Positions 38,729 through 43,360 of a stretch of DNA of 61,254 nt are shown in pieces. The notes under the pieces were generated by a model. It ran no database searches, had not been told where the DNA came from, and worked only from the letters and a program-made list of their open reading frames with translations. The stretch spans positions 1 through 61,254 of the forward strand of contig JAVJTC010000026.1 of assembly GCA_040219085.1 (NCBI GenBank), in the 5' to 3' direction. The first letter of the stretch is position 1, and every line of letters starts with the position of its first letter. The position numbers were made by a program, and so were the translations under genes. This DNA is from Acidimicrobiales bacterium (GTDB lineage: Bacteria; Actinomycetota; Acidimicrobiia; Acidimicrobiales; JAVJTC01).

Positions 38729-38887
38729 GAAGTCGGAACCACCGCAACCACGAGGGGCGCGTCACAGGGTTGCAACAGTGAATTGCCGCTCCGCGCACGG
38801 CCGTACCTGATTCGCCATGACGTTGGCGCGATCTGCGTGTCGCGCCGCCTGCGGGCGGTGGGCGCCAGCCCGTTCGACGGGACCGAG

Positions 38888-38972
38888 CGGAGGGAGGGGG
38901 ATTCGAACCCCCGGTGACCGAAGCCACACACGCACTCCAGGCGTGCCGAATCGTCCGCTCTCGCATCCCTCC
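38888..38972 (-). tRNA. tRNA-Ser(GGA)
   Basis: On the minus strand: acceptor GGAGGGA with TCCCTCC, discriminator G, class II long variable arm, anticodon loop CTGGAGT (anticodon GGA) and T-arm GGTTCGAATCC. CCA is not encoded. It is divergent from the SRP RNA on the other strand. Confidence 0.95.
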
Positions 38973-39039: not shown

Positions 39040-39177
39040 GTGCCCGTTCTGGAATGTGACGGTCGGGCCCTGCGCAGCTGAGGCCCGTGAACCGAGTCAG
39101 GGCCGGGAGGCAGCAGCTCTCAGCGGAACCCTCGGGGTGCCGCAGATCGCCTGGCCGTCACTTTCGAGGACGGGCAC
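39040..39177 (+). ncRNA. ffs: Signal recognition particle RNA (small, bacterial)
   Basis: The apical SRP domain is recognisable: GTGAACCGAGTCAGGGCC, then GGGAGGCAGCAG and AGCGGAACCCTCGGGGTGCC, matching the conserved actinobacterial form. The flanks GTGCCCGTTCTGGAATGTGA and TCACTTTCGAGGACGGGCAC pair over about 25 bases with compensating differences, giving the long closing helix. Exact ends are estimated from that helix. It lies 36 bases before dnaX, the usual actinobacterial order, and binds Ffh for membrane-protein targeting. Confidence 0.9.
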
Positions 39178-41044: not shown

Positions 41045-41482
41045 ATGAGCGACAGCCACGACCCCCGCGGGATGCCCGGCTTCGACATGGAGGCGCTGTT
41101 GCACACAGCGCAGCAGATGGGCGAGCAGATGATGGCGGCTCAGGCGGCAGCGGCGGCGGCCGAGTTCGAGGGGCACGCCGGCGGTGGTGCGGTGAAGATC
41201 ACGGTGACCGGCGGCATGGACTTCACGTCGGTCTCCATCGATCCCTCCGTCGTGGATCCTGACGACGTCGAGATGCTCGAGGACCTGGTCCTCGCGGCGC
41301 TGCACGATGCCGTCGGCAGGGCTTCGGCGGCCGACGAGGGTCCCGACCTCGGCGGGATGGATCTCGGCGCCCTCATGGGCGGCCTCGGCGGTGGGCTTCC
41401 GGGTGGGCTGGGCGCCCTCGGCGGCCTCGGTGCCATGCCGGGCGCGATCGACATCGGCGGGGACGACGAGGAAGAGGAATGA
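41045..41482 (+). CDS. YbaB/EbfC nucleoid-associated DNA-binding protein
   Basis: 145 residues. The middle [20 protein letters not shown] and [24 protein letters not shown] is the YbaB core: a GxVxVxxxG strand, then two helices. The N-terminus is a Met/Gln/Ala helix ([16 protein letters not shown]). Unusual for the family is a 50-residue Gly/Leu/Met-rich low-complexity tail with a final EEEE. Its position between dnaX and recR is the standard one. It overlaps recR by four bases. Confidence 0.9.
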
Positions 41483-42090
41483 TCGGGGTCTACACCCCAC
41501 CGGTCCAGGAACTCATCGACCAACTCGGCCGTCTTCCCGGCATCGGTCCCAAGTCCGCACAGCGGCTCGCCTTCCACCTGCTGAGAGTGCCCGCCGCAGA
41601 CGCAGAGCGCCTGGCCGAGGCGATTCTCGAGGCGCGTCGCCTGGTGAGGTTCTGCGACGAGTGCTTCAACTTCGCGTCCGCCGCACGCTGTGAGATCTGC
41701 GAGGACCCCCGTCGCGACGCATCGCTCGTGTGTGTCGTCGAAGATGCGCGCGACATCGTCGCGGTCGAACGGACCAACGAGTACCGCGGTCGCTACCACG
41801 TCCTCGGCGGCGCCATGAACCCCATCGAGGGGATCGGCCCCGAGCAACTCCACGTCGCCGAACTGTTGGAGCGGATCGGCGCGGGCGGCATCGAAGAGGT
41901 CATCGTGTGCACGAACCCGAACATCGAGGGTGAGGCGACGGCGATGTACATCGCCCGGTTGCTGACTCCGCTGGGGGTGACGGTTTCCCGACTCGCCAGC
42001 GGGCTACCCGTCGGCGGCGACCTCGAGTACGCCGACGAGTTGACGTTGGGTCGGGCTCTCGAAGGCCGACGCACCCTCGACGCCGGCTGA
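41479..42090 (+). CDS. recR: Recombination mediator RecR
   Basis: 203 residues. N-terminal helix-hairpin-helix [20 protein letters not shown], the zinc finger [17 protein letters not shown], and the TOPRIM domain with [39 protein letters not shown] and the C-terminal [19 protein letters not shown]. All are conserved RecR blocks. It loads RecA at gaps with RecFO. A perfect hairpin lies 19 bases after the stop. Confidence 0.96.
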
Positions 42091-42104: not shown

Positions 42105-42352
42105 CGGAACGGCCGGGCTCCGAAGAGCCCGGCCGAACCGTGGAGAGGGAACTCAGGGGTGCCGCTCCGAGCCGTCGGGCGCGGGCGAACAGTCCGGCGT
42201 CAGCGGAACGGCACCCCTACGTCCTCGACGGAGGGTGGAGGGGAGGTTCGTGGCAAATGCGAAACCCGTGTCCGGCTCCGACCGCGGCGGGCCGTCGCTG
42301 CGACCTCTGTGCCGTCGGTCTTCACTGGACGAATCCCCCCGTCGTGAACGTT
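42105..42352 (-). ncRNA. Candidate structured small RNA, about 250 nt, minus strand
   Basis: The 450 bases between the convergent ends of recR and divIVA hold no convincing protein gene. On the minus strand a good promoter lies just upstream and an 11-pair hairpin with a UUCG loop ends the segment. Inside, CGGCACCCCT pairs with AGGGGTGCCG across a 50-base loop, and an exposed C-rich run (CCTCCCCTCCACCCTCC) resembles anti-Shine-Dalgarno patches of regulatory RNAs. No known family (6S/Ms1, tmRNA, RNase P) was recognised with confidence. The 5' end is inferred from the promoter spacing. Confidence 0.5.
42110..42135 (-). terminator. Bidirectional hairpin between recR and the candidate RNA
   Basis: A perfect 11-base-pair stem (CGGCCGGGCTC and GAGCCCGGCCG) with loop CGAA on the plus strand and UUCG on the minus strand. 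C(UUCG)G is an unusually stable loop, which suggests the minus-strand transcript is the main user, although it also follows recR. No T-run is present on either side. Confidence 0.75.
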
Positions 42353-42358
42353 GCGGTC

Positions 42359-42387
42359 ATGTTACATCGTCAGGGCCAGCGGTGCAA
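42359..42387 (-). promoter_or_regulatory. Sigma70-type promoter reading away from divIVA
   Basis: On the minus strand TTGCAC (42387-42382) and TAACAT (42364-42359) are separated by exactly 17 bases, close to the consensus. No protein gene starts downstream on that strand for hundreds of bases; only the structured region and hairpin follow. This is consensus matching by eye. Confidence 0.6.
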
Positions 42388-42540
42388 GCGCGTGGCGGCC
42401 GAGGCGCGCCCTGGGCGTGTTCGGGCGCCGGTCGGCCCGACGTGGGTACACGGAGAGTGTTCGGTACAACGCGCGCAGTGCCCAGGTGTCACAGGTTCGT
42501 AACACGACGTGGGGCGCCGGCGAACACCCGGCGCGCGGGT

Positions 42541-43278
42541 TCAGCCCCAGTTGTCCCGGTCGGTGCCCTCGTCGGGCCTGCTCGCGCCGGCGAACACCCC
42601 GGCGGCCTCGCGCACCTCTGCGAGCACGCCATCGGCGTCGTCGCCGGGTCGCTGCGAAGCGTCGGAGGGACGGTCGGCCTCGAATGCCTCGAGGGTGAGT
42701 CGCACGTCTTCGAGCGCAGTGCGCAGGCGACTCTCGAGGGCAGACTCCACGGCGGTGGCCCGGTCGCGGGCCTCGGCCGCCTCGGTGAGGATGGTCTCGA
42801 CCCGGCTCCGGGCGCGGGTCTCGGCCTCACCCCTCACGAGTTCCGCGTAGGCGTCGGCCTCGCTGCGTGTGCGACGCGAGTACTCATCGGCCTCCCCACG
42901 CGCAGTGCGGACGTACTCGTCAGTTTCGGAGCGCATCCGCTGGGCGTCGGCCAGGGATTCGTCGGTGATCTCGGCGGCCTGCATCTCGGCCGACTGCAGG
43001 ACGGCCGCCACCCGCGAGCCGAGTCGGGCGAAGTCGTCGTCGGGTTCGGGCGTTGCCGCAGGCGCCGGGGCTTCAGCGGCCTCACCTGCCGCCTGCTGGG
43101 CCTCGGCTGCGCGGCGCTCGGCGGTCTGGGCCTCGACGCGCGCCTTCTGCAGCTCCGCCTCGGAGCGCGCGACGCTCTCGGCGACGGTGCGCAGGAACGT
43201 CTTGACCTGATCCCGGTCGAAGCCCTTGCGGACCACGTCGAAGTCCTTGGCGATGATCTCTTCGGAATTCGCGGGCAC
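42541..43278 (-). CDS. DivIVA/Wag31-like coiled-coil protein
   Basis: 245 residues from the GTG encoding VPANSEEIIAKDFDVVRKGF, which has GGAGGT five bases upstream; a start five codons earlier lacks this. The N-terminal segment FDVVRKGFDRDQVKTFLRTVAES is the DivIVA lipid-binding hairpin (F-x-x-x-x-x-G-Y/F-D-x-x-x-V-x-x-F-L). Residues 45-230 are an almost continuous Ala/Glu/Arg coiled coil, broken by a PAPAATPEP stretch. Actinobacterial DivIVA proteins mark curved membrane and direct polar or septal growth. No other division genes are adjacent, and a paralogue elsewhere may be the main Wag31. Confidence 0.8.
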   Translation of the reverse strand: MPANSEEIIAKDFDVVRKGFDRDQVKTFLRTVAESVARSEAELQKARVEAQTAERRAAEAQQAAGEAAEAPAPAATPEPDDDFARLGSRVAAVLQSAEMQAAEITDESLADAQRMRSETDEYVRTARGEADEYSRRTRSEADAYAELVRGEAETRARSRVETILTEAAEARDRATAVESALESRLRTALEDVRLTLEAFEADRPSDASQRPGDDADGVLAEVREAAGVFAGASRPDEGTDRDNWG

Positions 43279-43360
43279 TGCCCACCTCCACACGCGCTGA
43301 CACCTTCATCAACACATCGGCGCCTCGGCGCCGGGAGTGAGGGTCTGGAATGATCTCGTC

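Follow-up and report, generated by a model that had tools for sequence, protein, structure and literature searches.

A candidate small RNA family with a near-invariant loop, located beside recR in the Acidimicrobiales

Most of what is known about post-transcriptional control in actinobacteria comes from mycobacteria, corynebacteria and streptomycetes. Ms1 and the 6S-like RNAs (e.g. scr3559) are, like the RNA proposed below, actinobacterial small RNAs encoded by stand-alone genes with promoters of their own, and their long hairpins present RNA polymerase with a mimic of an open promoter. Another kind is represented by the 6C RNA of mycobacteria, B11, whose C-rich loops have been reported to base-pair with G-rich sequences close to ribosome-binding sites (PMC10470900). 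Here we analyse a locus in a 61,254-nt stretch of DNA (the window) from an Acidimicrobiales bacterium (contig JAVJTC010000026.1), for which an earlier note, made from the letters alone, had proposed an orphan small RNA gene between recR and divIVA.

The locus and its promoter

The genes and promoter elements at the locus are as follows.

41479-42090, plus strand: recR, a conserved neighbour in tail-to-tail orientation to the small RNA, with synteny in relatives
42541-43293, minus strand: DivIVA-like gene, flanking the small RNA on its other side
42382-42387, minus strand: -35 element TTGCAC, with TTG in nearly all relatives
42359-42364, minus strand: -10 element TAACAT, separated from the -35 element by exactly 17 nt
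42348-42358, minus strand: conserved stretch gaccGCAACgt, with a GCAAC-like sequence kept in relatives

As the earlier note had stated, no protein gene occupies the site, and recR and the DivIVA-like gene converge on the interval that holds the small RNA. The window copy lies 57 nt from the recR coding match, on the opposite strand, and the proteins closest to the window RecR come from MAGs of Acidimicrobiia. The DivIVA-like gene also adjoins the small RNA in five other loci (L034, L172, L176, L189 and L193). At four loci (L005, L011, L014 and L002), the gene that precedes the small RNA or the corresponding place on its strand is not DivIVA and, as read from the sequence, ends like an acetyl-CoA acetyltransferase. 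A perfect direct repeat of 16 bases, GCGCCGGCGAACACCC, which is not expected by chance, is present on the plus strand at 42514-42529 and 42584-42599, one copy at the end of the DivIVA-like gene and the other just after that gene. Directly upstream of dnaX-ybaB-recR is a bacterial small SRP RNA (39061-39159, plus strand); a tRNA-Ser at 38887-38972 (minus strand) was reported by ARAGORN, and the Rfam tRNA model had no match there at its cut-off.

The -35/-10 pair with exact 17-base spacing described in the earlier note is present at 42387-42359, and the layout TTG-17-TAAYRT was found in 42 of 46 aligned relatives. Because TTG and TA...T served as search criteria, their invariance is partly by construction; the G before the -10 element, the AA and the GCAAC near it were outside the search criteria in the promoter alignment step, and of these the G was invariant (42/42) and the AA and GCAAC after the -10 element were conserved. 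The window carries the family promoter, TTG-17-TAAYRT followed by GCAAC, in the form TTGCAC-17-TAACAT-gaccGCAAC, a pair that a strict E. coli-type promoter scan of the window did not report. Such a housekeeping-type promoter would start the RNA at about 42352; the first nucleotide is probably the A of AAC, at a distance of 12 nt from the first -10 base. In many copies, the promoter spacer (42365-42387 in the window) contains an element, tCGTMA, about one helical turn upstream of a similar TYGTAAC at the -10 position, which is followed in turn by GCAAC; tCGTMA is weak in the window copy. The tCGTMA/TYGTAAC pair could be a putative operator for a regulator.

The core hairpin and its relatives

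When the region was compared by BLAST with 40 genomes of the order, the only match besides stray short pieces was the recR end, reflecting an RNA too diverged for BLAST. Among these loci, the DNA beyond recR in one, L005, showed the promoter layout of the window together with a hairpin carrying the common loop CGCCCGCGCCCGAC. The exact loop pattern, run over 397 genomes, returned three real copies (the window, G024 and G342) among chance coding matches, so that a model search was needed; a relaxed motif search supplied nine seeds, each with a hairpin around the same loop. Covariance models were then built from matches near recR, with no recR sequence in the model. The model R1 picked up a single strong copy in each of about 20 genomes out of 198 from the order, and one copy in the window's own genome. 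The refined model R2 detected the RNA in at least 49 of 397 genomes of the order at E <= 0.001, counts that are lower limits because few candidates were scored per genome, with one copy in each genome and two in a single genome with 6% contamination. Many genomes of the order had no detectable copy. Class- and phylum-wide searches gave strong scores only in members of the order; three sub-threshold matches outside it (E 0.005-0.01) were rejected, having no recR nearby and looking like coding sequence.

The part common to the family, which the earlier note had not singled out, is a hairpin.

42155-42218, minus strand: core hairpin of the family, with a covarying stem (R1 67.5 bits, E 9.1e-15, the window copy having been in the R1 seed)
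42181-42188, minus strand: near-invariant loop motif UCGCCCGC, family consensus CCGCCCGC

The core hairpin is about 75 nt long in the family and has 15-base arms in the window, where a covarying stem carries UCGCCCGC. In almost all members the motif CCGCCCGC is present, inside a loop of roughly 14-20 nt, while the sequence of the stem varies freely. Covariation in relatives, the check that the earlier note had suggested, was evident at every modelled pair: among 52 distinct members, all 23 pairs showed changes on both sides, with 273 double-changed cells, more than in shuffled (72) or slid (30-46) controls, in an alignment that was fitted to the model, which favours structure, and that includes one row representing a weaker reverse-strand match of L127. 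In the seed alignment, made with MAFFT without structure, RNAalifold predicted 19 pairs, 14 of them changed on both sides. It is this covariation that proves the core hairpin, the fold energies of the two RNA domains being modest (z -2.6 for the 5' domain and -1.9 for the core hairpin alone). Eight members consist of little more than promoter and core hairpin, making the core the common denominator of the family.

Of the 55 members, 39-40 are found on the opposite strand downstream of recR, in most cases no more than 150 nt away, and another five are downstream of it on the same strand. Some copies are separated from recR by 0.5-2 kb or lie elsewhere. Some of the remaining members adjoin divIVA, and the copy in L199 is near a methylmalonyl-CoA epimerase-like gene, which also follows divIVA in the window. 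L201, among the weakest members, lacks both a promoter and a nearby recR and may be a false member.

T runs follow the core hairpin in roughly half of the copies, and the hairpin is a probable intrinsic terminator in many relatives. The RNA would end at or just after the hairpin 42218-42155; in the window copy, however, the T run is weak, so that the RNA could extend to a further hairpin with a UUCG loop. Both the position between convergent genes and the T residues that often follow the hairpin would also be expected of a mere cis element that serves recR and divIVA as terminator or insulator, its promoter being incidental. However, terminators do not keep an invariant loop, the promoter and the first transcribed bases are conserved, and copies occur 0.5-2 kb from recR or elsewhere, making this explanation very improbable. 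The promoter, stems, loop and place are kept over many genera, and we consider that the small RNA gene proposed in the earlier note is almost certainly real and conserved. The presence of one copy per genome, with the same promoter, hairpin and loop in about fifty species, suggests that it very probably has a job not yet described.

The 5' domain and possible partners of the loops

The remaining features of the transcribed region are as follows.

42221-42352, minus strand: 5' domain (z -2.6), with smaller hairpins inside a long closing stem
42230-42246, minus strand: C-rich run CCTCCCCTCCACCCTCC, with about 8 nt unpaired in the predicted fold
42110-42135, minus strand: UUCG-loop hairpin (z -7.7), a near-perfect palindrome

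The structured downstream region with complementary arms reported in the earlier note is borne out by the fold of the whole 252 nt (z -4.8), of which the UUCG hairpin is the strongest part. The closing stem of the 5' domain pairs ACGUUC.CGACGGGGGG with CCCUCCGUCG.GGACGU. The domain is present in most copies and, where present, usually folds into a hairpin; its length ranges from 2 to 132 nt among the relatives, the window copy being the longest seen. Because of this range, no reading frame is common to the family. A 41-codon frame at 42325-42200 (minus strand), with a GTG start preceded by a G-rich stretch, might otherwise have pointed to a short messenger encoding a small protein, but the variation in length refutes such a role as the family function, and we regard it as extremely improbable.

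The UUCG hairpin, which had been taken as the end of the RNA, is present at 42135-42110; it folds on both strands, on the plus strand nearly as well, and is located 20 nt from the recR stop. It is more likely a shared terminator on the recR side, which might also serve the small RNA as a backstop. Since it is probably not the defining terminator of the small RNA, we predict from the sequence a length of about 205 nt, with the end near 42145, or of about 245 nt for an RNA that runs through the UUCG hairpin, instead of the about 250 nt proposed before.

The C-rich run CCTCCCCTCCACCCTCC, which the earlier note had described as exposed, is partly so in the predicted fold, and such runs recur in relatives: a YCYCCC run is present in 21 of 43 5' domains versus 6.9 in shuffles, and the 5' hairpin often has a CUCCCCC-like run. 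Together with the core loop these runs suggest how the RNA may act. With CCGCCCGC almost fixed while the stem changes freely if pairing is kept, the core loop would be the working part, with about half of the members presenting a further C-rich (CUCCCCC-like) stretch in the 5' hairpin. By analogy with 6C/B11, the most likely pairing partners of the loops would be G-rich stretches of messenger RNAs. That the RNA is of the C-rich-loop kind is likely; the fuller statement, that it is a trans-acting regulatory small RNA encoded by a stand-alone gene, belongs to an uncatalogued family of the order and pairs through its loops, is one on which we are evenly balanced.

Searches for targets gave no indication of such pairing. 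In 792 kb of the window's genome, with crudely predicted gene starts, the loop complement GCGGGCGG showed no enrichment ahead of start codons, and its overall frequency showed neither over- nor under-representation. GGGCGG was somewhat high before starts, where the choice of start favours SD-like words. The recR gene of the window contains a perfect 10-base loop complement, GGCGCGGGCG (41878-41887, plus strand), and its messenger was rejected as a target, since relatives do not keep this complement. An 11-base loop complement had no common site among six genomes of one family, and a general anti-ribosome-binding-site action of the second loop gained no support from the 792 kb, there being no enrichment before starts. 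The motif CCGCCCG resembles the 16S decoding region and was set aside as a short match at chance level. These tests are weak, being based on crude gene calls, a short seed and part of a genome, and they leave base pairing with messengers unproven and a protein partner as a serious rival. The RNA would then titrate or guide a protein, with the invariant loop on its long stem as the recognition site. An invariant loop of 8 nt on a freely covarying stem also fits a protein site, several copies are little more than the core hairpin, and the tests run found no base-pairing targets; however, there is no candidate protein, and the second C-rich stretch that recurs in the 5' hairpin better fits pairing RNAs of the 6C type. 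We therefore hold protein binding to be somewhat unlikely and continue to favour pairing through the loops.

Relation to catalogued RNAs

Searches against Rfam 15 at gathering and relaxed thresholds revealed no family match for the small RNA, in agreement with the earlier note, which could not match it to 6S/Ms1, tmRNA, RNase P or a riboswitch, and no match of the 6S/Ms1 kind was found in the window. The 6C model (RF01066; cut-off 47 bits) had no match in the window at E up to 5, nor in about 25 member loci at relaxed thresholds. Among 40 relatives searched, only G027 had a 6C RNA over the Rfam cut-off (L156 1501-1577; G027:C3:3125-3201); this genome carries both the canonical 6C, on another contig, and the new small RNA, and our family model did not find the canonical 6C. 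On the scores and this coexistence, canonical 6C was rejected as the identity of the RNA. As for a strongly diverged 6C (B11) in place of a separate family, the two C-rich-loop hairpins, the second often followed by T, the actinobacterial host and the single copy would all agree with it; against it are the lack of any 6C match in window or members at relaxed thresholds, the 6C of G027 that the family model misses, the several members without a first hairpin, and a loop that reads CCGCCCGC and not a six-C run. The coexistence in G027 largely refutes this possibility, which we judge unlikely.

With its fixed loop and place and its strong promoter, this conserved small RNA of an environmental order that is widespread makes it possible to test whether RNAs with C-rich loops had more than one origin and what those loops bind, and the alignment and the model have the specificity needed to found a new Rfam family. 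We suggest, tentatively, that this order-wide RNA with its near-invariant CCGCCCGC loop might have a protein or RNA partner unlike those of 6C, 6S and other catalogued families.

In the new RNA, unlike Ms1 and 6S, the conserved part is a hairpin that is shorter and whose apical loop is invariant. The new RNA resembles 6C RNA (RF01066; B11) in being actinobacterial, in having hairpins with C-rich loops and in its terminator-like second hairpin. However, 6C has two hairpins with about six C residues per loop, whereas the second loop of the new RNA is CCGCCCGC; its first hairpin is missing in several members, with a C-rich run in about half of the 5' domains, and, unlike 6C, it has a fixed place beside recR. 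With a similar layout outside the 6C family, the new RNA may work like 6C without being 6C.
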